Assembly (NCBI RefSeq): GCF_048771995.1 | Contig: NC_133032.1 | Location: forward strand, 24,267,501 to 24,331,500 | Source of the DNA: Taeniopygia guttata | Taxonomy: Eukaryota; Chordata; Aves; Passeriformes; Estrildidae | Direction of reading: 5' to 3' | DNA: 64,000 nt | Shown here: positions 16,401 to 59,038 of the stretch, piece by piece | How positions within the stretch are numbered: the first letter of the stretch is position 1 | How the letters are laid out: every line of letters starts with the position of its first letter | Notes under the pieces: generated by a model | Databases searched by the model: none | The model's input: the letters and a program-made list of their open reading frames with translations, nothing else | Told to the model about the DNA's origin: nothing | Made by a program: the position numbers and the translations under genes

Positions 16401-19400
16401 ACTAATTGAGGAAGAGAATGCTAAGTGGTGGGTGCTTTTCTATTCAGATGTTTTAAAACATTTTGCAGATACCTGGGATTTTTGTAGCACTACTACATGG
16501 TTTGTGGAAGGAAATTCTCCTTATGACCAAATTTTTTTTTCACCCCTGCCCCACCCATGCATTTAAATGTGCTTTATTTTTCCTGTTCGTTCTCTGCATT
16601 TCATAGGGGTCTGCTTTGTTTATTATTGTTCTGTAGGTGTTGTAATGAGGTTGAGTGGTTTTTAATATCTTGCTAACCTGAACAAAGCTCTGGGCAGACT
16701 TCTAAGACCTCATGGCCAGCCTTGCTTTAAGCAGGAGGTTTTTAGGGACCTCCTGAAGTCCTCTCCAACTGAATCTGTGAGCTGACAGTGAGAATGTCCC
16801 TGTAACCTGATATTCTGATTTAATGTTTAGCTAGGCTGTATAAAGGGAATTTTCCTGGGTCTCACCAGAGCTTCATCTAGCTTAGTCTCCCTCTACAGTG
16901 CCTGCAAGTGAACGTTCAGGAAACAGTGTAAGAGCAAGCCAAGCATGGAATTTCCCAATACATTTTTTTGTTTGTTTTCAATTATTTGCTGTATCTTCTT
17001 ATTTCTAATGTTAATTATGCACTTTTGATTTCCTGCATCTCAGTGTTTTCCGTTTTATTTCATAGAGGAAGATGTGCTGTAGTTAGGAAATGTGTAGCTA
17101 AATCCACGGGCCAAGAGTTTGCAGCTAAATTTTTAAAGAAAAGAAGAAGAGGTCAAGACTGCAGAGCAGAGATTGTGCATGAAATTGCTGTCCTTGAATT
17201 AATGAAATCCAATCCTCGCATAGTTAATCTGCATGAAGTCTATGAAACAGCAAATGAAATCATCTTAGTGTTGGAATAGTAAGTATGCCTTTATCACATG
17301 ATCCATGTTTGTGCGGAAAAAATCTTTCAATATCTTATTTTTTGCATGAGTTGCCTGAATGCCCGGAAGAATTGCAGCAGCACCCTGTATACATGATGCT
17401 AATCTTTTATTGTCATATACTTCATATTTTTCTGTTAAGGATATTTCAGGCAGGCTGACTGGAAATAATGTTCTTGGAATACCATAGAAGGTCCTGAGTG
17501 CTTTGATGCAACTCAAATCACAGAAAAAAAAGTCACTGATTCCAAGTACACAGATTTCAAAGAGGTTAAGCACATCCATGCCTGTGAACTTCAAGTTAGC
17601 ACTTGACATTTTTTGGTAACTGGAGACTTAGAGTTACTTTGTTTTGAGCTCCTAAATTTAGTGGTTTTGTTGTTTTAAAATTGACTTTTGGAACAGTTTC
17701 CTAAAAAAATCCCATATTTTAAAATGTCCCCAGTGCTTCTTATTAGCTCTGAAAAATAAGTTTGATTTAGGAATTGAATTTGCATTATCTATCATATTTG
17801 TTGTATGTGTAAATTTTTGTGTGGATTGCAAGGAACAAAAATCCAGCCTGTGAAATTAATTCTTTCTAAGATTTAAGTTTCATGTACAAAGTATTTGAAG
17901 TACTGTTAGGGGTGGTCTCTGTACACATTCTTTGGAAAATTTGAAGGAATTTAGCTAGATTCTATCTTAAAAAGCTTTTTGCTTTTTTTTTTTTTTTTCC
18001 TGGAACTAAATGACCCTTAACATATAATTTATTCTAAGGCTTTTTTTGCAATCCTTTCCTGCAGAGCTTTCAGCTCTTTACTCATGTGGGTGCCCACTCA
18101 TCCAGACCATAATGTAACTTGAGTACAGCAATACTGTGGGAGCCAGTGCTGAAAACCTTGTGAGAGTTGAAATTCATGGCATCCTCTGCCCTTTCCCTCA
18201 TGTCCATATTGCCATAAAGGCACCTAGGGGAGAGGCATTACTGACACCTCATGTAACCTCAGCAGGTTTGTGGCTGTGATCATTCATTTTGTTCATTATC
18301 TGACTTTTTACTAGACTCTCATTTTAGAGAGTTTAGTAAACTTAGCAATGAAGTTTAGACTCAGTGATCTGTAGTTTTGAGGAAAACCTTCATCCTTGAG
18401 AGAGAGACTTGAGGCACTCAGAGCAGGCTGAGTAAGGATCTCAAACCCAGCTTGAAAGGAGACAGCTGACACTGCAGCCAAGTATAGGAATAACTCATAA
18501 ACCACAGGAACACAGATATTTCCATGCTGCTTTACACTGCTCTGAATTATTTATGAACTGGTCTCATGGAAGACATTTTAAATTTGACTTGAAAAGAAAG
18601 GCTTCTTTGATTAGGGACTGATGATAGAATTCGACTTCTGGAAGGCATCTCCCCAGTTGCTTGAGGGGACCAGAGCATTATGAGGTTACCAGTCAAAGTG
18701 CTTTTTGCTGTCTCAACTGCTGTTTCAGGCTATAAGGAAAAAGCGCCATCACATTTTCTTCCCCTGTTCTAAGTGTTTATATTACGTGCTTTAGTGTAAA
18801 TGTGTAAAAAGAAAAATATTCCCAGCCTCTCTGATATTACAGATGTCTGTTATATCGTGCTATTGAAAACATTTTTCCTTGCTAAAGTTTCAAAATTTAA
18901 ACTTAATACATAGATGTGCTTCAATGTGTTTCAGTGCTGCTGGAGGAGAAATATTTGACTTGTGTGTCCCAGATCTGGATGACAGAATTGGTGAAAGGGA
19001 TATTGTAAGGCTTATAAGGCAGATACTTGAAGGACTTTGCTGCTTGCATGAGAACAATATTGTTCATCTTGATTTAAAGGTGAGGCTGCAGCAGGCTTTC
19101 TTTTAGCACTTTATCTTCAATTTACTACGTTCATCAAAGTCATTTGTTAAATACATTAAAAAGATGAGAAAAATGAGAGTTAATAATATTAAAATGAGAT
19201 TAAAAGGATAGAGATGAAATATTTTAAAATAACGTTTAGCAGTAACTATTTCATAGTAGAAGCTCAAGTGCCATTTAGTACATCGGGCTTTTTTTTTCAG
19301 ATTGTATTTTATTAATTAGAAATGCATTTTTTTCTATTCTAGCCTCAAAATATTTTGCTGAGTAGCATCAATCCTCTTGGTGATGTAAAAATTGTAGATT

Positions 19401-44949: not shown

Positions 44950-45134
44950 GTTGACTTATGCAGCAAAGAACTGCAGTGAGCAGAACAATTTAATGGTGGC
45001 CTTGAGAGTGAGAAAACTTGCTGGCATGAAACTGCTTTGGAGCTGGGAATGCAGGACATCAACTTGACTGGAATACTCCTGTTCCATCAGGAATTGTAGC
45101 TTAGCTAGCAGCCTTTACATCCAGTTACAGACAA
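44950..45134 (+). pseudogene. DNAH7: DNAH7 relic: AAA5 entry (EKT.W...NLTG)
   Basis: Reads VDLCSKELQ, a TGA stop, AEQFNGGLESEKTCWHETAL, ELGMQDINLTGILLFHQEL, stops and a frame change, then AAFTSSYRQ before donor CAA|GTGATA. Human has VDLCSKKLERAEQLIGGLGG, EKTRWSHTALELGQLYINLT and GAFTSTYRQ. The splice acceptor AG appears to have changed to AT (44948-44949). Confidence 0.92.
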
Positions 45135-45414
45135 GTGATATGTACAGTGATTTTTGTTCTTCTGTTCTTTTAATAATCTAAGTTTCATTAATTTTTCTTC
45201 TAATAGAAATATATTTTAAATTATGTTTTAGTAAAATTAATAAGTGGAACTAAAACTGTGTTGTTGTAGGCTTTTGAGTTTATTCTACTCCTGTGGAATA
45301 TTCGTTTTTCTTCTACTGCAGGGTACTTTGTAAAACATGGATTCCTTTGGTTAATTTTCTTCTTTAAAGCAACAGCAGTTCCAGAAGAACAGATGGTCAA
45401 TCACAACAGATATT

Positions 45415-45552
45415 GTGCTATTGTTCCATCCCTGGAAGTGTCCAATGCCAGGTTGGATGGGGCCCTGAGCAATGTGGGGGCCATGGCAGGGGGCTGGAAC
45501 TGTGTGATCTTTAAGGTCCTTTCCAGTCCAGGCCATTCTATGATTCTGTGAT
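45415..45552 (+). repeat. CR1 LINE 3' end, sense orientation
   Basis: Contains 'ccatccctggaagtgtccaatgccaggttggatggg', 'ggggctggaactgtgtgatctttaaggtcc' and the terminal 'ccattctatgattctgtga', the CR1 tail with its ATTCTATGATTCTGTG end. Less diverged than the other copies. The - strand frames at 45351-45685 are its shadow. Confidence 0.85.
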
Positions 45553-46319
45553 TTGTGCCTATAACTCTTAGTGAAATAAACAGAAATTCAGAATACAGAA
45601 AAATGTTAACATGGCAGATAATTTTTATCTGTAAGAACTTTTGGGTGTCAAGACTGCCCTGACTTTGAATGTTTTTGAACACCAAAACCTGCCACTGAAT
45701 TCAGCTGAAGAACTTAATGTCTACTTATTTTGAAAATCAGGTCCAGGTTAATGAAAATTGCTAAAAATTAAAGACAAGCAAATCAGTCTGTCATTTGAAG
45801 ATAGAATTTGGATATTATCCCTATTTCCCCTTTTCCTTCAATGCACTTACTTTGGCACTAGAAATACTGCAGATATAGGGCATTGATTGTACTTCTGGAA
45901 GCAAAACTACTTGTTGAAATGAGAAGGATGTATGCTGGCATTCAGATTGTATATGTAATTTTTTTTCAAGTAATTACTGTATTAATAATTCAATCACTCA
46001 GGCTAAACAGTCGACAAATGTTAATGAATTCAACACTTGCACTGTTCATCCTCCATTTCACTTTTACACCGCTTTGATCAAAATTCTTTTTGAACTAATG
46101 GAAAGATGATTAGCATTTTAAAACTAAATAATTATAGCTTTTAATTTTGAAAGATGAGATAGAATCTACCTCAAATTGATGGTGCATATTATGTCTGTAG
46201 TTATGAGTTTATGGCTGGATATTAGGACTACAGGAACAATGTAAAATGCAACTCAACTTTTTGTAACAACAAATTTTTTCAAAAGCAGAATTAGCAAGCA
46301 ATCAAGGATAATTTGCAAA

Positions 46320-46395
46320 CATATCCAGTGACTGCTTATGGATTCCCATCAACGAGGAAGGATTTTATAAATGATGAAAGCTGTGTGTGTTGGAC
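46320..46395 (+). pseudogene. Possible DNAH7 relic (AAA5, AGLPSDSFSIDN-like)
   Basis: Between two secure relics, exactly where this exon should lie, one frame reads YPVTAYGFPSTRKDFINDES, which may correspond to human EAVTI...AGLPSDSFSIDNGI with internal loss. Short and weak; chance resemblance is possible. Confidence 0.3.
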
Positions 46396-47164
46396 TGATA
46401 TTAGAGAACTATTCTTTAATTATCCAAGTAGTAAGTGGGATATGCTGAAAATAATGTGACTGAAACATTGAAGTAGGGAAAGAAATAAGGCAGGTTTTAG
46501 CTGAGTTTTACCCAAATGCTAAATTCCTGTTTCTAGACTGTGCTTAACATGCAGGTTTCCTGTGTTCAGCTTACAGTCTGCAATTGCTGGTAGCAGCTTA
46601 TGTTGAAAATGTAACCTGGCTCCATCTCCCTTGGGTCTCTCTTTGGGCAAGGAGAGGTGACTGAGCCACGTAGGAATCTGGCAGCTCAGCAGTTCTTCCA
46701 GTACATTTTTGACCCACTGCTGAACACTGCTGTGTGCTGTAGATTCTCTTTCTATCCCTGCTGATGCTACTGCCTCACTTGACAGATGTTCAGGTTTCCA
46801 ATCCCTATTACTTCTCCAGGCTTATGGTGTTACTCAAAATCCTTGTAACTTTGCAAAGTTTACACTTTAACTTTGTTAAAGTCATGCTATGCTGGTGGGT
46901 TACAAATGTATTTCCTGAACCTCTCAATGCATTTTACCAGTGAAAGCTTTCTTCTCTTGTGGGTAGGCTGGACAGTGTCCCTTTCAGGTGTTTTCCTGAA
47001 CCTTTCTAAAAGGAGGAAGGAAAGGCATCCTCCTTCAGCTGGTGATGGGTCACTCCCAAGGACAGTCTCTGATCCATAACAGAGAATGTTACTGCCATTC
47101 ATGGTACATTTCTCCACCAAAACTTCCTCTCCTAAATTTAGGCTTTCTTCCACAAGAAGAAAGT

Positions 47165-47245
47165 GTAAAATTATTAGTGGAAAATTCCCACTAATTATTC
47201 CTACTAAATTTCCCACTAATTATTATTAGTGGAAAATTCCCTTTG
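47165..47245. repeat. Cluster of inverted repeats (ATTAGTGG / CCACTAAT)
   Basis: ATTATTAGTGGAAAATTCCC and its inverted form CCCACTAATTATT alternate several times within 80 bases, forming perfect short hairpins in either direction and a near duplication of the whole unit. Confidence 0.75.
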
Positions 47246-47594
47246 TTTTTACTTGAAAATACTCACTTATGCATGGAACTGTATTAAAACTATTCAAAAT
47301 TTCAGAGGGATATTATTTTGAATTAAATATAAAACTAAATGTGATTAAACTTTCTAGTAAGAACTCTTATTCTAAATTGATTCTCTCAAGGAGGAAAATT
47401 GGTTTTTTGTAAACAAAGAACCTTAGGATTCATCTATCTCCTCTTAAATTCATCAAGAATTGCACTGAGTATGTGCTTGTTATGATTTCATACTGATGTG
47501 CTTTTAAGGGAATACATTGCCTTATGAAGCACTTTGAGGTAAACATTTGAAGAGCTTATATTTAAGTTTTGAAAGTTTGTATTTTTCCCTTTAG

Positions 47595-47887
47595 TAATGC
47601 AAGAAGATGGCCTCTGATGATGGCTCCTTAGGGAGCTATCAAACAAACAAATGAATAAGGAACATGGAAAAAGCCAATGGCTTGCATATAATCAGACTCA
47701 GAGACCCGCAGTTTATTACAACAATGGAAAAGTGCATTCAGTTTGGCAATTCTGGAAGGATGACTAATGAAAGTGTAAATTACAGAAAGACCTGGAGGGG
47801 GCACAATTCGCTAAAAAATGAGAGTTGTGACTATCCAGAGTTCTCAAGGGAACTAGATATGTTTTTTACCCCCTTGTTTTGAATCAA
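47595..47887 (+). pseudogene. DNAH7: DNAH7 relic: AAA5-AAA6 exon (KNMEKAN)
   Basis: Acceptor CCTTTAG and donor CAA|GTGAGT are intact. NARRWPLMMAP, a stop and a shift are followed by NK-stop-IRNMEKANGLHI, IRLRDPQFITTMEKCIQFGN, then a diverged ESCDYPEFSRELDMFFTPLF. Human has NARRWPLMIDP, NKWIKNMEKANSLYVIKLSE, YVRTLENCIQFGT and DSTIEYAPDFRFYITTKL. The Trp of NKWIKN is now a stop. The open frame at 47664-47882 is this relic, not a gene. Confidence 0.92.
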
Positions 47888-50800
47888 GTGAGTACTATTG
47901 AAGCCCTCACTCCAAGTTATACTTAAAACTAAACTAAGCTACTTCTTAGCACAATATAATAATCCGTTAAATTTTTATATTTAATTGTTTTATGAAACTT
48001 GCCATTTCTTTTTTTTTAATATTAGAATAATAATATTTCTACACATTATCATGCTGGAAAATCAGTTAAGGTGAGAATTTTGAAAATAAATGTGCAACTC
48101 TGTTTTAATTGTAAAGTGATTCCTTGGCTAAAACCTGGGAAGAATTCCTGGGATTTGTTTATTCCTACTCCCCTGCCTTTTTTTTTACTCTGCTGGGTGA
48201 CTGGTACCACAAGTGTTGGCATTATCATGTGTAATACTTCACCTTGCTATTCTGACATTCTGACATTCTTTCATCCAGTTGGGGATTTATTTAATTAATT
48301 ACTTTCATCACCTTTCCCAGTCTGAATCTCCTGATGCTAGTTGCTTACCTTTTTTTAAAAAAATATTTACAAGACTTACTACAGTAGTCATCTCACACGC
48401 AAAAGCTACATTGGGCTTTTTTACCTGTTAGGGACATGGAAAGGCCTAGGCAGTCTAAGTTTAGCAGAACTGTTATAGATATTGCTAGTAATCATTTTAG
48501 GCAGAGCTTAATATTTTGGGATCATATTTGAATGTACCTTTGAGATAACCTTTACCACCAAGTCAGTCTGTGTTCTATAAATCTAACTCTTTGACTTTAA
48601 ATCTTACTATTTTATATCTCAAACAATCCCCTGTATCCCTGTGTGCCTAAATTGGAGCATGGAATAAATAAAATTACCTCACTTTGATTCCAAACCTTTC
48701 CGTCAGCAGAAATATGAAGATACAGAACCTGAATCCCAGCTGCCATTGTGCATTACACCAGTCATCCCCAGGGAATGTTTGGTGTAAGCCCCTTGTGATG
48801 ATTTTATCCAGTGAAGGCAAGAAGCTCTCAGCATAGTCCAGCAGCAGCTGAAGAAAGCCACAAGACCAGCAAAGGCAGAGGTAGGCAGCCCCACAGAAAA
48901 TTCTCTGTGAATTAATAATTCACATAGCCCTGTTTGGCTTGGACTGCCTTCACTAGTCACACTATTTTCTCATGCAAACCATGTTACTTTTGTGACTTGA
49001 AAAAAGTTTACATCTTGTCCCACAGTCATCTTTATGTCAGTATTTTGTGCATAAATTGTAGGTACATCTTATTTTACTGATGAGGAACCATAACTTTGAA
49101 AGGACTTAATGCTAATAATAACTCAGTAATTATAACAGTGATAATATTAAAAACTATCTATTTCTTGTTAACTGAATGAAAGAAAACAGAAATAGATTGA
49201 AACACAAGACTGAAAAGGAAGAACAGATCAAACAACATATCTTGCTCTCATTCTTGATCTTCTGTCAAAAGATTTCCACTTTTTAATGATAATAGGTCAC
49301 AGTTAGGTCTCAGAATGATCACCATGCCTGAAATACAGAAATGATCCTCTGAGTAGCTCTCTGCCAAGGGCTTGGTAACCTAGGTAATTGGGAAAAAGCT
49401 ATAGAGATTTTTCCACATCTTTGTTTCTACTTGAAAAAAGAATTTGAATTATTTTCTGCAAATTCTTACACTGCATTTCAAACCACCTGAATGGACTTCA
49501 CCTAATTTTGGCTGAGGTGTTCAAGGTATTCAGACAAACAGAAAATTATCCTTCTATCTTACTCTCCATATCTGACCATAACCACTTTCATGTCCAGGTA
49601 ACACTTTTGCCAGTTCTCTTTTTGTACTGTTAATTTAAATTATGAAAATCTATCACCAATATTCAGTCAAATGACACAGGACTTCTTAGACCCTTTAAAG
49701 AAAAAGATCGATTGTGTATTTTTTTCATTGTAAAGGTCAAGGATTTAGAAATACTTTTTAATTAAAGAAATAGCCTGAAGTATGCAGAGTGAGAAAGAAC
49801 GGACTTTTGGTTGGAAATGCTCATAAAAGAATACAATGAAAGACATTAAAGGAACTAAACAGTTCTAGCTCCTTCACTTGACCAGATTGCGGGAAATGGG
49901 CAACTAATGAATATTAGGCTTTTTTTGGGCATTTACAAAAAAAAGATATAGCAAGTAGAGGACTTGAGTGCTTTGGGAAATAGTCACCTAGAAAATAAAC
50001 AGAGAAATGATGACACTGGGAAAAGAGACTGATGGGGGAACTACTTCATTATGCATACTGGGGTTATAGCTGCCCCCACTCTGGAAGCTGCAATAACAAC
50101 ATGACAGCTGGGTTCGGCATAGGCCATTTACAAACCAAGCTCTCTGGTGCTTTGCTTGACATTCATTTTCTCATTCTTGTTTTTCTGCCATCATTTTCTG
50201 CATTCAGCTGCAGCCTAACTTAGTAATAGTGTAGTGTGACTATCACTGATGATGTCTTATCATTGTAACCTTAAAGACTGGCACAAGAGTAGAGCTCTAA
50301 CAAAGAGGGAGCTAAAATGGATGCTCACTTTCCCCCTTGCATAATTTCTTCCTTTTCTAGAGAAGAACTTAAAAATTACTCCAAATCTTTCAAAGATAGT
50401 AATCCTGTGCTGTACAAGAAGCTTCTTAGAGTAACATGTATTTAAATGTTTTTTTTTTTTTAAAAGCTTCTTTAAACATGTTAGCCTCATTTCTATAACT
50501 TAAGAAAAAATACTTCATGGATTGATGTATCAAGGTAAGGGATAATTCAGTCTCAAGGTAGGGAATTCATAAATGCTTTGAAAATGTTGAAATACATGTT
50601 TCTAGGCTCCCCAGCATAAGAATTTTCTTGCAGAGTGGAAAGACAAGTCAGGGGAGTTTCAAAATCTGCTGTTCATTCACTGCCTGAGAGTTGACAAAGT
50701 AGTGTACAAAACTTTCACCTTACTGAGAAAGGCTACTTGCATCTTAAAAAATCAAACATAGTTGCATGCATTTTTATTCTATAACAATCTCTCTTAAAGA

Positions 50801-51205
50801 AAAATAGGAATTTGAATTAACAACATTTTAAAAGAACTCTAGCAAGTTTGAAATTGTAATGAAAATCTTCTAAAAACAGAATAGTAGGACTTTAGCTTTT
50901 GTTGTTTCAGTGGCACACCAAATCCCCAGAGCTCTTCCTTGAGACTGTCTTACACACCTTGTGTCTACCCTTATTTAGTACACCTGCTATTTTTGCTGAT
51001 GTCATTGTCTGGGTCAATTTTGCCTGATCTGGAAAGACAGCTTAGTGGTAAGCAGGAGTGTAGATAATGCAGGTGCCTAAGCAATTGTTGCAGACACACA
51101 GATCCATTTAGTTCCCTGGAAAGTGTTTTGAAGCAGAACTGTTCCGATTTGAGTCTAGGTATAAAGTTTTAACACAGATCACAGAAGTACTCACAGTTGT
51201 GAATC
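47888..51205. other. Former dynein intron space
   Basis: No secure exon. A patch at 48,710-48,890 with ILSSEGKK in one frame and a CAG...GTAGG border could be another dynein remnant (human EVLSSSEGN...ILSSSK), but the match is too short to claim. The rest is AT-rich. Confidence 0.35.
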
Positions 51206-51211
51206 TTTATT
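51206..51211 (-). terminator. Poly(A) signal of the BIRC5-like gene
   Basis: AATAAA on the - strand, 232 bases beyond the stop codon of the BIRC5-like gene. Confidence 0.6.
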
Positions 51212-51442
51212 CAAAAAAAAGTCAGCTTGCTAAAAATCAGAATAGAAGTATTTGCTTAGACATTTTTCATACACTAGCAGGGTAGTGGAACTGCTCTACA
51301 GCAATACCAAGAAAGCACACTGTGAGAGCTCTGATCCAGTAGTTCTCCACATACAATTCCTCACGCACCTGTTCAGCTTTGGATTGGCACTCAGACAGAG
51401 AGGACTGTTTGCAGCAAAGGAAGAGACTTGCAGAGTCAGACG

Positions 51443-51631
51443 TCACAGCTCACTTGCCCCGGGCTCCTCCTGCCCGGTGGCTGTGCCTCCTGGCTGCTGG
51501 GCTGAAGGCTCATCCCCGGGAGGCAGCGCTGCCGGCAGCGAGGGTCTGGAGCCAAAGTAATTCACCAGCCTCTGCCTCGTCGCCGCGACTTCTTCTTGGA
51601 AAGAATTTATTGTGCGGCTGCCAACTTTGCA
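51443..51631 (-). CDS. BIRC5-like coding exon 4 (helix and novel tail)
   Basis: After acceptor GATTCAAG in phase 0 the frame reads [28 protein letters not shown], then a GC-rich Pro/Gly/Ala/Gln tail ending EEPGASEL and TGA (51443-51445). The helix aligns with human KKKEFEETAKKVRRAIEQL. The acceptor's polypyrimidine tract is modest, and this exon was found by eye, so it is the least secure of the four. Confidence 0.78.
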   Translation of the reverse strand, partial: CKVGSRTINSFQEEVAATRQRLVNYFGSRPSLPAALPPGDEPSAQQPGGTATGQEEPGASEL

Positions 51632-54007
51632 CTTGAATCAAAGCAAGAGATTGAGCCTTTCAGCTGAGCTGAAGCTGCAGTTCAGCCAAATTCCAAGCCC
51701 CCCTCCTCAGGCTGCATTCAGGTATCAGTGCTTCATGATAGCAATCGTACCCTGGTCAGCCTAGTGCACAGCCCTCCCAGCTATTGGTGACTAGCCTTGG
51801 GGCTAAGTGTCCCCACCTGAAGCTGCTGCTTCAAATTTTTTATACACTCCTTAGAAATACAGTCATATTATGGCCAAGACCTCTTTTGTACCTTGAAACA
51901 TTGCTCTAAATCATTCACAATTCAAGTTAGGTAACACCAATTTCTCACTCTTAGTCCATCTTCTAAGATATCACTGTGCCACATGATCCTATTTTTTGTA
52001 CTTTAATCTGTTGCACAGTGACCTTAAATTCTTAACCTTAACATCCACCAGGTATATATTTAATACAGAACATTAGCAGGGCAGAGATCTTATTTGTGCA
52101 AACCCACCAACAAGTAATATGCAGAACCTTTTACTGTTCCTAGTCAGTGAAATTGGTTCACTTGATTCTTACTATTCATAGGATTAGGGTGCATATAGCA
52201 GCTGATTTTGATCAACTGAGTAGCTCAGCTGTGTGCTTCTGTTACATATCAACACTATGGCATGAAACCCCAGAAGTGGGGAGAAGTACAATATTTGAAA
52301 TGAGCTTTGAAATTTAATTAGGCAGATTTCTATGTTAAACTGGACATGTGAAGCAATAATCTGGTCAAATTTTGTCCCTTCACTTGTGTTGTTCATCCCT
52401 CCTGAGAATGGTAGAGCTGCTCATTGTTGAGTTTTGTGCATTGGTTATTGCACCCCACCCTATATATTTTTTTTTTTTTCTGCTGTAATGAGTTGTTGGA
52501 AAAACACTTCTAAAGGAAACTTCAAAAGCCAGACAACAAATTACACTGAGAAATGCTTAGGTGCAGATTTCTTAGCCAATAACACACATGAATTATTACT
52601 TCAGAATAAGTAATGTTCTAGCCTCCGACAATCATTCCTGGCTGATGCTTGGAAATCTTAGTGAGAGAAGTTGTTGCTTATATTCTAGCTTTGAATTTCA
52701 GATGACCTGGTTATCACTTACAATGAAGGTCCTCAGCCGTGTCATCTCCAGCATGTAGTACTCCTCCATTGTCAGCTCATCAAAGTGCTTGGGAAGGGAT
52801 AAAAAGTCACAGGTGTGACGTTTGGTGTGTTCCTCCCTGCAATGTAAACCAGAATAAGAGCAATGTTAAACCCATAGAAGTTTCATTGCAGAAGAGGAAG
52901 AGATCTGTAAAGGCAGGTCTCTTCAGTACTTGTGCAGACATAGTATCATACAGAAAAGATAAAATAGATTTTAGTTGAACAATTTCACAGTTACTGGGAA
53001 AGATAAGCTTCCAGTTTTGTGAACCGTCATAGTGGAAAATGACAAGGATATTAACTCATTGTAAAATTACTAAAAAAGTTTGGAGAGATATTTCTCAAAA
53101 GCATTGTTACATCTGTGCTTACCATGGGTCATCATTTGGTTCCCAGCCCACCAGTTCTAACAAGCAAAAGAAACATTTTGCCACATCGGGTTCATTTGCA
53201 CTTGAACAATGGATGAAGCCAGCCTTTGCCATCTGCAGGGGACAGTTCAGAAGTTTAGAGCATTGTCCCACACACACTGCTCATATTTACACATATTTCC
53301 TGACACTTTAGAATCATACCTAATCAGGACACCAACAATTTAGGTTTGCTTCAGTAACCAGAGACCTCAGGTAACACTAGCATTATGACTCATCTGAGAT
53401 TCAGGCTGGCAGTGTCATATATAAGCCAAAGTAGAAGTTAGATAGAATTTTTTATTTAAATAATATCCATTCTGAATTTGAAGTAGTGATCGTTCCACTA
53501 TTTTATCCTTCCTGATGGATCCATACTTGTTTAATGTAGGCTGCTTTGTCATGAATAGAAATCTGCAATTAGAAAGACTATGTGATGCCAGAAATTAATT
53601 TTTAAATGACAGTAAGAAAACAAAACAAAAAAAAAAAAGGAACAAGAACAGTAACTATTAAAATCTGTAGGCAGACTGTGGACTGAACACAGAAAAACCA
53701 GTCAATCCCAGTACAGTATTTCTGAGCACGGAACAGAGGAAAGCTGAGTATCTAACATTTCATCTTCAGGCTTAGTGGACTCCTCTTGAACCTGAATATA
53801 CTTTACTATGACTTCACTTTCAGACATAGCACATAAAAGCAGAAGCAAAACAACCATTTTCAGACTTACATTCTCTGGAGTGCACTTGCAGTTTTCCTGG
53901 AAGGGCCACTTGGTGAAGGTTTTTAAACGGCTCTCATATTCATACATCTCCCTAAAGTCAGTTAAGAGCTTGGAAGCTGAGCTAAGCTCTTGCAGCAGGG
54001 TCTCCAT
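51443..54007 (-). CDS. Survivin-family protein (BIRC5-like), intact, four exons
   Basis: Survivin is the BIR-domain subunit of the chromosomal passenger complex, acting with INCENP, borealin and Aurora B in mitosis. Exons in transcription order are 53870-54007, 53123-53232, 52722-52836 and 51443-51631. All borders are GT-AG, and they join to 183 codons plus TGA. Residues 24-95 form a BIR domain: [14 protein letters not shown] (Thr43-Pro matches the Cdk1 site T34), [20 protein letters not shown] and [14 protein letters not shown]. Zinc ligands are C66, C69, H86 and C92. The C-terminal part has [13 protein letters not shown], matching the survivin helix, then a 35-residue Pro/Gly/Ala-rich tail. 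Exon 2 is 110 nt as in mammalian BIRC5; exon 3 is 115 nt instead of 118. The human paralogue is elsewhere in the genome, so this is probably the second vertebrate survivin (birc5-like/survivin-2 of frogs and fish). It lies antisense within the DNAH7 ruins. Confidence 0.9.
52722..52836 (-). CDS. BIRC5-like coding exon 3
   Basis: Encodes (W)[18 protein letters not shown] then [21 protein letters not shown]86 and C92 complete the zinc site with six-residue spacing instead of seven. The exon is one codon shorter than in human. Acceptor TTGCAG, donor ATT|GTAAGT. Confidence 0.93.
53123..53232 (-). CDS. BIRC5-like coding exon 2 (core BIR)
   Basis: Encodes [36 protein letters not shown] and two bases of W. 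It contains C66 and C69 of the zinc site. Exactly 110 nt, the length of mammalian BIRC5 exon 2. Acceptor CTGCAG, donor TG|GTAAGC. Confidence 0.95.
53870..54007 (-). CDS. BIRC5-like coding exon 1
   Basis: Encodes 46 residues, [10 protein letters not shown]... to KCTPEN, phase 0, donor AAT|GTAAGT. The ATG has G at +4. The N-terminal leader is longer than in human survivin by about nine residues. A second in-frame Met at residue 21 is an alternative start. Confidence 0.9.
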
Positions 54008-54110
54008 CTATGAAAGCTGCAGTCAGTGTGAGGCAGGGCCTCCCTCCTGCTCTCACATTTAAGGCCTTTGCTGATTGGTGACACTTTGCACCTGGAGAGC
54101 AGGGGAGGGC
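54008..54110 (-). promoter_or_regulatory. Promoter/5' leader of the BIRC5-like gene
   Basis: On the - strand an ACCAATCAGC box (CCAAT complement at 54074-54078) lies about 70 bases before the ATG, followed by a TTAAAT element. There is no CpG island, unlike the usual BIRC5 promoter. Tissue-restricted expression is an inference. Confidence 0.45.
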
Positions 54111-55049
54111 CTAAGGGAGCCCTGGTCCCTTCCTAACACAGGTGAGTTTATGGGCAGGACAATCTAGGGAGCTGCTGGAATTTCTTCTTCTTGTGTCACA
54201 GGCTGTGTCCTTGGTCACACTATATATATTTTAACTGAAAGCACGTATGGTAATTGCAGATTTTACAACTGAAATGTCAAAAACTGCAAGTTAAAAGCTA
54301 GTTACAAATACAGAAACTTTACATATAAAGTTTTAAAAATATTATCCTGATTGCAACCGAAAGGGTTGAATTGACATTGCTATTTGAATCCTTCAGTGTT
54401 TCTTGAATTTCATATTCAGAGATTAATTCTTAGGATTGTCTTTGCAAATACTGTTGCATTTCTTTAAAGAGGAGGTGGTTATTTTATAATGTTGTAAGTA
54501 TTCAGTTCTATTTTAAAATATAGAGCATGGCCAGATGCTGGATGATAATATTTTAAAGGTGTATATCTGTAAGGGTTTACAGTATCAAAGTGTTAAGGTG
54601 TCATTTTATCAACTGTCTCTTATTTTGGTACAGAGTCCAGTTAAATTCGTAGAAGTTTAAACATGAGTGTCTTTAAAACTGCTGCATGCAGCAGCTTTCT
54701 AAGCCAAGATCTTAACATCTCTGAAGGATGTTGCATTGTGAGACTTGAAAATTTAAATCTTCTCCAAAATACAAGTGGAGTAAGTGCAGAAAATAATCAG
54801 CCCATAATTCTGTCCAGATGTGGTGACAAAAATGAGATAAAAGAACATTTGCGTAGGACTTCCAATGTCAGCTCTTAGGGCATTGTTTTTCCTAGATTTA
54901 CAAATGCTACATCATTGATTCCTCTGGGACTGTACAGATGTCTATTTTATGTGCAGGAATACTGTCCTTGAAATTTATATTCAGATATTTAGAGTAACAT
55001 GTGTTACATGAAAATAGGACACTTTAATTATTTTTTTTCCTTTTTCCAG
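54111..55049. other. Spacer between BIRC5-like gene and next dynein relic
   Basis: AT-rich; the frame at 54663-54878 has no dynein or other family resemblance that I know. A long T-run precedes the next relic's acceptor. Confidence 0.4.
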
Positions 55050-55157
55050 ATAATACCAATGGTGGAAGAATTTATCATTCATAACCTGGGCCCTCCAAGC
55101 ACTGATACTAGTAGTTTCTCCTGGTGCTGACTCCATGTCAGCCCTTCTTCAGATCAG
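55050..55157 (+). pseudogene. DNAH7: DNAH7 relic: AAA6 (IPM.EEFI..LG, SPGAD)
   Basis: Acceptor TTTTTCCAG, then IIPMVEEFIIHNLG, an internal deletion of about 25 codons with frame change, then LILVVSPGADSMSALLQIR and donor CAG|GTATTT. Human has VIPMLQEFIINRLG and PLIFVLSPGADPMAALLKF. Confidence 0.93.
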
Positions 55158-58085
55158 GTATTTTAATCTCTTTTAGTGTAGTTGATGTTTCTGTGTGCGC
55201 ATGTGAGTGTATTTGTATGAAGCAAGGAATTTCGTTTAACTAAAAGCTGCAATGCCAAACCAAACCCAAAACCTGTTTTTAACTGCCCAAAAAACATGGT
55301 AAAATTGATCTCATGCTTCTCTTTAACACAAGGCACTAACTCATGCATATGAATTGTTTTCAGGAATGAATATTTCTGTTGTTTAAAAGAAACTGTAGGA
55401 TAAATAGTTTATCATCTTGTGATGTCATGACCTATTTTGTGTCATTTCAAATGGAAAATGCAAAAATGGAACAAAACCATAATAGTTTAAATGTTTCTTG
55501 TAAGCAGTCTTATCTGAAAATGCTATTTTTTTTCAAACATGTGCAAGGTATTATTTAATCAAAACCACCATAGTAATATAGGACCCTGGAGTCCTGGGTG
55601 GAATTTATACATCAGAATTGAAATATGGATTTTGTTGGGTTTTTTTTTTTGCTTTGACTGTTGTTGTGGCATTTAAAACAAACAAACAAAAAATTCCCAA
55701 CAGCCCAAATCAGTTCTTATGTAGAAAAGTACTGCTAGAATACTAGAAAGTAAGATTATACATGTAATAACACATTTTAAGATGTATTTCTTGCATTTCC
55801 TGCCTATAATTCTGTCAGAATTCTGTGCTTTGAGAATGACAGGTACACTTCAAGTCTTCAGCCACCAAGCTGTAAAGGTATTCTGCATTTTATAGTAGGC
55901 TGTGTCTACATTGTTCAAGAGAACACTGTTTGCAGAAATGTTCTGAAACTGTCAGAATTGCATAGGTCCAGATTAAATGTATGGGTAGTTGGAGCTTTTC
56001 ACTGGGAGATACACAAGATGTGGCATGACATGAAAGAAAATATTTAAATTGCATTTTAAACTATAGAGTACATTAAATACCCAATACCCACTATCTGATC
56101 CTGACTTTTACAATAAGTGCAGAAAACCTGTGAGTAATGTTGCAACTTTGTAAATCGGTTAAAGCCAACCCTAATGAACGGGTATCTGTGATCTGTGGGG
56201 AGAAGGCCTCAAAAATTAAATAATTGTGTTCCACTGCAAGGAAAACAGTTTCAATTACTGCCAGTAGTGGAATAAATTTATTTTTTATTTTATTGCTTGT
56301 CTCATACTTCATCACTTGAAACTTACTGCTATAGCATTAATAATACAGCTCTCTAGGTGTTTTTTTTTAAAAAAGGTAAGATTGGGAAAACCTATCCACT
56401 GTTTTAATAATTTGATGTGTCTTTGCAATCACATTTTACATTATTTTGCATTATTTTTCTCTAATTAATGTAGCTTATCTAAATGAGATTGAATATTTAC
56501 CTAAATGGTCCGACTTGAAAACCAAATCAAACATTTCTACCTGATGTCTTTATGTAAAGGCCAGAAATCTAACTTGGTAAGGAGAAAAAAAAAAAGCTAA
56601 AATATTGTATGAACAATATAATACAGTGTATATACAATATAATACAGGTGTTTAAAAATTTACAGGTTCATGGTCTCATACATACAGTTGTACGTAATGT
56701 ATATAATAAAATAGCCTTAAAAACTAAAATTGCTTAGAGGTTTTAAGAGACTCTGGAATGATGCTCGTGACCATTCAAAGACCTCCTGCTGAAGGGGCTT
56801 CCCCTGCCTCACAAAGTGTGTGAGCAGGAAGAAGCTGGGCTCAGAGTGGCTCAGCTCTGCTGTGCAGGACAGGAGATAAAAAGTTAACTATTCCTGCAAG
56901 GTGTAAAACATCCTACGGGCACCCCTGATGGCTGGCTGTGATTTATTCAGTTCCAGGGACAAGACCAGCCCCTGGACTGCTGCGGAGTGAAAGCAGCAGG
57001 GATCCAGCTGAGGAGCTCTGACAGAGGCCGTTTCCTTCCCTGCCTGCAGAGGTGGGTTCTGCCCATGGAAGCCTTTCGGGAATTTGCCAGCGATACAGGG
57101 CATTTCTTCATGTTCAAACTTCCTAAGCAGCCCAGCATGGCCAAAGTCTGTCAAAGTTATGGATGGGCAGGAACAGGGGTGTTCCTTTCACTGTCAGCCT
57201 ACAGTGATTTCGGTTATTAATGTGGTTAACAGGCAAATTCAAGCAATAATGTGATTAACAGGCAAGTGATCAAGCAACTTCACCAAGGTGTTTCTTTCCT
57301 GAAGGACAGTGGGGAGTAAAGGGCAAGGTTGTGAAGGGGGGTATCCTCCTATCACATGACCAAAGGTTCTGAACAAATTACAAATACAGATTGTATATAT
57401 ATATATATATATATGCAAACTATATATATAACAAATATGTATTTGTAATTCTGAACAAATTACAAATATAGTTCCTAGCAGGGAGGGAACCTTTTTTTGC
57501 CCTGAAGGATAATGTATGTAGTAAACATGTAGTGGTACTTTTTTTGACTGGTTTTCTTCATCCCAGTTCTCAGTTCTCTTGCCTTTCTGCAAATAATTTT
57601 CTTTTATCACTCATAATTTTTCCTTTTTATGCACCTAAGAGGAGTCCAGCTTCTCCCAACCTCAAGAATTTAAGCATACTTGATTTTCGAAATAAATAAA
57701 TAAATTTTAAAAACTATGAGCACTGCTATGGCCTTGTGATAGCATACATTTATTTTAGAAAGATGTCAAACAAGTAGCAATAATTTTGGAAAAGTTTTCC
57801 ATAAACTTGTATCTAGGGAGTTTCAGCTGCATTACTATGGAATTTTTTGGTGCTATTATTATTCAAAAGCAGGAATGGCTGGGTGACTTGAGGGATTATT
57901 ATTAAAAAGTATTTGAAGGGCTGGAGATGAAATGGTTCAAGCATGAACTAGCAGAAGTAATTAACAGCTTTTAAACTTTGCAGTGAGAATTCTGGCTGTC
58001 TTCCAAGTGAATTACAGTGATACTGATAGGGCTGCCCAGGGAAGTGCTGGGCTGCTGCTCAGATCACTGTCCTGTTTTCCTGCAG
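55158..58085. other. Former dynein intron space; simple repeats
   Basis: No secure exon. At 56,890-57,220 there is a GC-richer patch with open frames on both strands (plus-strand MEAFREFASDTGHFFMFKLP), which I cannot assign. It is followed by a near duplication (AATGTG(G/A)TTAACAGGCAA, 57,220-57,265) and a TA microsatellite flanked by direct repeats. Confidence 0.35.
57368..57475. repeat. (TA)n microsatellite with flanking direct repeats
   Basis: An interrupted TA tract (57394-57431) is flanked by two copies of TTCTGAACAAATTACAAATA (about 57367 and 57450), with an inverted TATTTGTAAT next to the second. Confidence 0.85.
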
Positions 58086-58165
58086 GAGCTGCCAGCTGAT
58101 GCTCCTCACTGTCAGCTGGGGAATGCAATTACAGTGCCAGGGGCACTGACACTGGGATTGGCTCT
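58086..58165 (+). pseudogene. DNAH7: DNAH7 relic: late AAA6/C-terminal exon (GECNY)
   Basis: Acceptor CCTGCAG, then ELPADA in one frame and, after a shift, SLSAGECNYSARGTDTG up to donor TCT|GTAAGT. Human has [20 protein letters not shown] and VTDDWDRRTL. Confidence 0.88.
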
Positions 58166-58882
58166 GTAAGTGTTCTGAGGATGTTCTTTTCCTCTAAAAT
58201 CATTACAAATGTCAATTATGTACTGGATCCAAGTGGTGTTTATTTTGCCTCTCCTGAAGGAGATGTATGTCAGAACAATAGAATTACCAACACCTTTTTT
58301 TTTTTTTAATAGATGTAATCTTTACTGAAACTGATGCATTTCAGTGTTTACTCAGTCACTGTTTGCTTGCTGGCTTAATCTCACCTTCTATCAGAACTTG
58401 TTTCAGTGACTTCTAAGAAAGGGACATTATGTAAACACCACCCAATTACTGTCATCTAAATTGACTCTGTGTGAGTCAGCACTCAGGGGACAGTAAGTGA
58501 GAAACACAGCTCAGTGAAGTTAAAAGCATTTTAAAATAGGCATAAGAGAAATAGCTCATTATAACTACTGGAGGCAGAAAGGCCACAATAATCAGCTTAA
58601 TTAGCACAGGAGTTGTGTCAGTCATCAGCAAAACACCTTCAGGCACTTGGCAGGCAGTGGGCTCAGAGAGGGGCTGCAGCCCCTTACACTTGGAATCTCA
58701 TTTTAATAGAATTTTCGTCAGCTCCCAGAATTTTTCAGGAATTGTATCTTTGTATCTCTTATATCTTGGTTAACACACTTCATTCATCACTCTAGGAAAG
58801 CCTGTGATGGTTTTGAAGTACAGCTTGTGGCCTCTTGTGGGCTGGTTGGCTGCTTCTGCATCTTTTTTTTTTTTTGGTCTAG

Positions 58883-59038
58883 AGGTATTTTTCCCCACCT
58901 TGTCTCAGTACTGCAGCTGTACTGAATATACAAAGACACTTGCACAGAATCCTTTCCCACAGATCTTTGACTGCAAATGCTGCTATTACCAAGGATCAGT
59001 CAGGAACACAACTGCTATTTGATGACATTCTTACACAG
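58883..59038 (+). pseudogene. DNAH7: DNAH7 relic: C-terminal exon (EYTKTL, ITKDQS.TQLLFD)
   Basis: Acceptor GTCTAG, then VFFPTLSQYCSCTEYTKTLA and PQIFD. After a one-base-type shift it continues NAAITKDQSGTQLLFDDILT and Q with donor CAG|GTATGA. Human has [40 protein letters not shown] and LFDNILLTQ. This is the last relic found; the final ~300 residues are missing. Confidence 0.93.

Follow-up and report, generated by a model that had tools for sequence, protein, structure and literature searches.

The window analysed here, a stretch of 64,000 nucleotides at C9:24267501-24331500 of a bird genome (the 1.14-Gb assembly searched has 41 contigs), carries a second survivin gene on its minus strand, lying among the remains of the axonemal dynein gene DNAH7. 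Its product is a single-BIR member of the survivin (BIRC5) family. The reading we prefer, and to which we give about an even chance, is that the gene is Survivin2, an old BIRC5 paralogue of vertebrates that sat in a former DNAH7 intron and outlived its host, and that changes in its histone pocket would leave it with weak or no binding to H3T3ph, its targeting depending on other contacts.

The survivin gene and its dead host

When joined, the four exons (Table 1) give a 552-nt frame of 183 codons plus a stop, with no inner stops. All three introns run from a GT donor to an AG acceptor, the donors being GTAAGT, GTAAGC and GTAAGT. The four-exon BIRC5-like gene with good splice sites described in an earlier note is thereby borne out, and the CCAAT box and poly(A) signal that it reported were located at positions that agree with its coordinates, the former 71 bases before the ATG. 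Exon 4 is composed of 62% G+C and its region (CpG ratio 0.55 at 51400–51599) forms an island within AT-rich, CpG-poor surroundings.

Table 1. Coordinates in the window of the second survivin gene and of the DNAH7 relics
Feature	Position	Strand	Remarks
Survivin exon 1	53870..54007	-	138 nt; ATG to CTPEN, phase 0, donor GTAAGT
Survivin exon 2	53123..53232	-	110 nt; first half of BIR, Cys pair CFFC, ends in phase 2
Survivin exon 3	52722..52836	-	115 nt; zinc-site His and last Cys, start of C-terminal helix
Survivin exon 4	51443..51631	-	rest of helix (by alignment), G+C-rich tail of ~35 residues, stop
CCAAT and TTAAAT (TATA-like)	54078-54074 and 54062-54057	-	upstream of ATG; putative promoter motifs
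AATAAA poly(A) signal	51206..51211	-	
DNAH7 relic	44995..45134	+	stop and frame change; tblastn probe only
DNAH7 relic	47596..47768	+	stop and frame change; 47655-47768 = DNAH7 residues 3001-3033 (PDB)
DNAH7 relic	50609..50704	+	beyond survivin 3' end; DNAH7 residues 3363-3394 (PDB)
DNAH7 relic	55047..55152	+	beyond survivin 5' end; frame change; E 0.001; 55044-55130 without PDB match
DNAH7 relic, weak	56088..56129	+	E 0.11
DNAH7 relic	58118..58264	+	DNAH7 residues 3638-3688 (PDB)
DNAH7 relic	58888..59032	+	frame change; tblastn probe only

Pfam recognised one family in the protein, BIR (PF00653), with a score of 72.2 bits (cut-off 22.9), and the best matches in the PDB were survivin chains (E 1e-37), which together exclude a chance match. 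Among the best 60 of 82 matched PDB sequences survivin took the top 15 places, with BIRC1, BIRC6, BIRC7 and XIAP below. The open frame, the BIR score and the PDB match uphold, on paper, the earlier description of the gene as an intact second survivin. Because its zinc signature, HX5C, departs from HX6C, we regard the protein as survivin-derived, its zinc loop having changed, and not as a canonical survivin.

The host was traced by tblastn with a provisional 1148-residue DNAH7 probe, pieces being accepted up to E 10. Of 17 pieces, 11 with E < 1 all lie on the plus strand, colinear from 44995 to 59032; the remaining six (E 1–10, two on the minus strand) break this order and were discarded. Neither the reversed nor the shuffled probe gave any piece below E 1. 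The 11 pieces cover 279 of the 1148 probe residues and show two stops and four frame changes between adjoining pieces. DNAH7 was the best PDB match for three of the four relic pieces compared, the fourth having no match. Upstream on the same strand is STK17B (16932–17276, continuing to about 24000; exon best match STK17B, E 9e-33), which we take to be the neighbour of DNAH7 in human also. Among the 70 best genome matches to a provisional probe of 372 residues no intact DNAH7 was recognised; the two strongest places elsewhere are DNAH3 (C16) and DNAH12 (C14), as judged by comparing one exon of each with the PDB. The probe controls, together with the naming of DNAH3, DNAH12 and STK17B, make this identification of the host firmer, and as far as its sequence can tell DNAH7 is a pseudogene here. 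Since the survivin gene fills the gap from 50704 to 55047 between relics, it sat antisense in a DNAH7 intron; the nesting proposed in the earlier note agrees with the colinear plus-strand relics that flank the minus-strand gene.

Dynein-like fragments also occur in multiple copies elsewhere, at many places on C41, on C3, C4, C1 and C5, and at C9:4662339. Many have the same pattern of stops (one TGA, two TAG), and they may stem from a pseudogene that was amplified or from a repeat that carries the fragment along.

Relation to BIRC5 and to other second survivins

A search of the genome with human survivin found a compact, ordinary BIRC5 on contig C4, separate from the window, which disproves the idea that the window gene is the genome's sole survivin. 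Read by hand, this BIRC5 consists of four exons (114, 110, 118 and 81 nt) that encode 140 residues (Pfam BIR, 80.6 bits); it keeps K62, E65, H80 and HX6C, as in class A. The second survivin is identical to it at 63 of 130 aligned residues (48.5%) and to human survivin at 59 of 117. Both bird genes have intron phases 0/2/0, after exons of 138/110/115 nt in the window and 114/110/118 nt on C4. Because these phases recur in a separate BIRC5 on another contig, the sequences indicate that the genome has two old survivins and that the one in the window is an old, intron-bearing paralogue rather than a retrocopy.

The protein's 17 genome matches listed comprise its own four exons, three exons of the BIRC5 on C4, nine on C1, C6 and C22, which fall where other BIR genes are, and one weak match on C4 with two stops (E 0.28). 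None of these 17 is a third survivin or another class B copy. None of four pattern matches in viral contigs encodes a relative.

The two bird genes have different promoters. That of the BIRC5 on C4 is rich in G+C (0.72) with a CpG ratio of 0.82, and has TTTGAA 13 bases before the ATG, which we take to be a cell-cycle element. The second survivin has a CpG ratio of 0.10, CCAAT and TTAAAT, and no TTTGAA within 250 bases; its promoter would rather resemble that of a tissue-restricted gene.

Second survivins as such are a kind already known. Two survivin genes are given for frog and for zebrafish in PMC2670274, and the review PMC2806521 mentions Survivin2 for chicken, adding that DT40 cells do not express it. 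The absence from mammals asserted in the earlier note accords with the single Survivin gene of that review. It is possible that zebrafish Birc5b is the fish counterpart of the window gene. What is new here are the altered H3-pocket residues (K62L and E65V) and a zinc loop one residue short. Searches of the literature by title, some of them swamped by the word “surviving”, yielded no paper on this gene in a songbird and none on a loss of DNAH7 in birds.

Survivins have been divided into classes A and B, reportedly by Niedzialkowska et al. 2012, class B being said to have R in place of H80. Among three sequences compared, the window protein is closest to frog class B (77/136), the frog sequence used being a provisional one; four-way scores, in which this provisional sequence is the sole class B member, pair the window protein with frog B and the BIRC5 on C4 with human A. 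Position 80 is R if the count starts at the zinc His or if the provisional frog sequence is the reference; against the BIRC5 on C4 the aligner puts H90 opposite H80, the outcome being set by the placement of a one-residue gap. From these comparisons, partly with a provisional sequence, we infer that the window gene is the bird's Survivin2, a class B survivin.

Altered histone pocket: change of role or early decay

Of the residues in the pocket for the H3 tail (human numbering), K62 is replaced by L (residue 71) and E65 by V (residue 74). D70 is also replaced, by N (residue 79), while E63, W67, D71 and E76 are kept. The H3T3ph signature K62, E65, H80 is therefore represented by L, V, and R or H depending on the gap. 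All four zinc ligands are present, but five residues and not six separate His 86 from the last Cys 92, so that the site reads CX2CX16HX5C in place of the strict CX2CX16HX6C (as written for Birc5b in PMC3630083). The BIRC5 on C4 has an exon 3 longer by one codon, which fits a single codon lost from the zinc loop. HX6C is found in that BIRC5 and in all four other distinct BIR motifs of the genome that a pattern could read, a count that covers motifs uninterrupted by introns and lying on the strand searched at each locus. Similarity is low in the C-terminal helix.

According to PMC7337490, the T3 phosphate is gripped by K62 and H80 of human survivin and H3 R2 by E65, and a complex with E65A-H80A had no measurable H3 binding. 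For HeLa cells the same source reports that K62A, H80A and the double mutant K62A-H80A continue to reach chromatin, the last of them spread out from centromeres, and that E65A alone is diffuse in the cytosol. K62L by itself would thus probably be mild. K62L, E65V and the short zinc loop are the grounds on which we predict weak or no H3T3ph binding, and the prediction leans most on E65V because the K62A and H80A mutants stay on chromatin and E65A does not.

The main rival is that the gene is dying: constraint would have been lost recently in this lineage, the changes in the pocket and zinc loop would be early damage and the open frame would be luck. We consider this unlikely, although it is the most serious of the alternatives. 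In its favour, K62L, E65V and HX5C all strike functional sites and the host DNAH7 is already dead; when substitutions alone were simulated, 28% of runs kept the 552-nt frame free of stops at 5% divergence and 8% did so at 10%. Against it, once indels were assumed to make up 12% of the changes, the frame stayed open in 1.9% of runs at 5% and in 0 of 4000 at 10%. The detectable DNAH7 relics bear six disabling changes in 867 nt, against no stops or frameshifts and three good introns in the survivin gene. At the relic rate a neutral frame of 552 nt would escape disablement with a rough P of about 0.02, a value that is conservative in that relics were counted only where still visible, though the survivin gene may have been released from constraint after the dynein was.

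Selection on the second survivin in the past is likely, and an open frame beside a decayed host speaks, if only roughly, against long neutrality. The earlier note went further and argued for continuing selection. Its observation of an open frame beside a dead host stands, with the rough P just given, but the conclusion was overstated, as the altered pocket and zinc loop would also fit relaxed or changed constraint.

Proposed role and comparison with known systems

If the gene is Survivin2 and not an early ruin, the steps would be as follows. It would have persisted in an intron of the former DNAH7 beyond the life of that gene; L and V at positions 62 and 65, with the shortened zinc loop, would weaken or abolish H3T3ph binding; targeting would then rest on borealin–nucleosome and microtubule contacts; and the protein would serve as a subunit of a germline or early-embryo passenger complex for which H3T3ph is dispensable. 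From the gene model onward we infer each of these steps, expression, complex formation and loss of histone reading among them. The expression of Birc5b in zebrafish is exclusively maternal; it functions in meiosis, in cleavage and in germ plasm, and Birc5a did not rescue its loss (PMC3630083).

Among six matches listed, two Nbl1/borealin loci exceed the Pfam cut-off (C13:13783835 and C25:661174). The one on C13 resembles, by eye, Borealin-2, which is presumably the same as CDCA9 and Dasra A. Chicken, frog and zebrafish have an orthologue of Borealin-2 and mammals do not, and in trout it is gonad-restricted (PMC5289475). One might go on to propose, for birds of this lineage, a second, germline passenger complex, built of Survivin2 and Borealin-2, in which the survivin has given up reading H3T3ph and Aurora B is placed without the haspin mark in meiosis or cleavage, the gene of this survivin being the lone survivor amid the remains of a dynein that the genome has lost; this fuller version strikes us as rather improbable.

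Somewhat less probable again is that the second survivin was kept for a cytosolic, non-chromosomal role, either anti-apoptotic or in blood and vessels, and is not a passenger subunit. The diffuse cytosolic E65A survivin of human cells (PMC7337490) would suit such a role, as would the part in haematopoiesis ascribed to Survivin2 (PMC2806521) and the endothelial proliferation induced by one frog survivin (PMC2670274), but BIRC5 is matched both in intron phases and in that portion of the C-terminus which can be aligned, and fish Birc5b acts as a passenger protein (PMC3630083). That BIRC5 was recently duplicated or retrocopied to give this gene is very improbable, and the processed form was rejected: its sole recommendation is that the window gene is a second survivin, and introns at BIRC5 phases, the 48.5% identity and the longer N and C ends are all against it.

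Should the preferred reading of a Survivin2 with an altered H3T3ph pocket hold, the bird would offer a natural test of whether meiosis and early cleavage require that the haspin mark be read. If the changes represent decay, the paralogue would be on its way out in this bird, as it is missing in mammals.

Compared with class A BIRC5, human or on C4, the window protein is alike in its single BIR, its zinc ligands C, C, H, C and the retained E63, W67, D71 and E76, and its gene is like that on C4 in its intron phases; it is unlike them in its N-terminal extension, longer C end, type of promoter and H3 pocket. With the provisional frog class B sequence it shares an N-terminal stretch of 27 residues and a similar EE..A...RL..YF end, whereas that sequence keeps K62, E65 and HX6C. 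Zebrafish Birc5b is likewise written HX6C (PMC3630083). The tail encoded by G+C-rich sequence also sets the window protein apart from its Survivin2 or class B relatives. Borealin-2, like Survivin2 a passenger-complex paralogue missing in mammals, is a different subunit and a candidate partner only. The closest parallel is Survivin2 of chicken and Xenopus, which like the window gene is a second survivin beside BIRC5 that mammals do not have.
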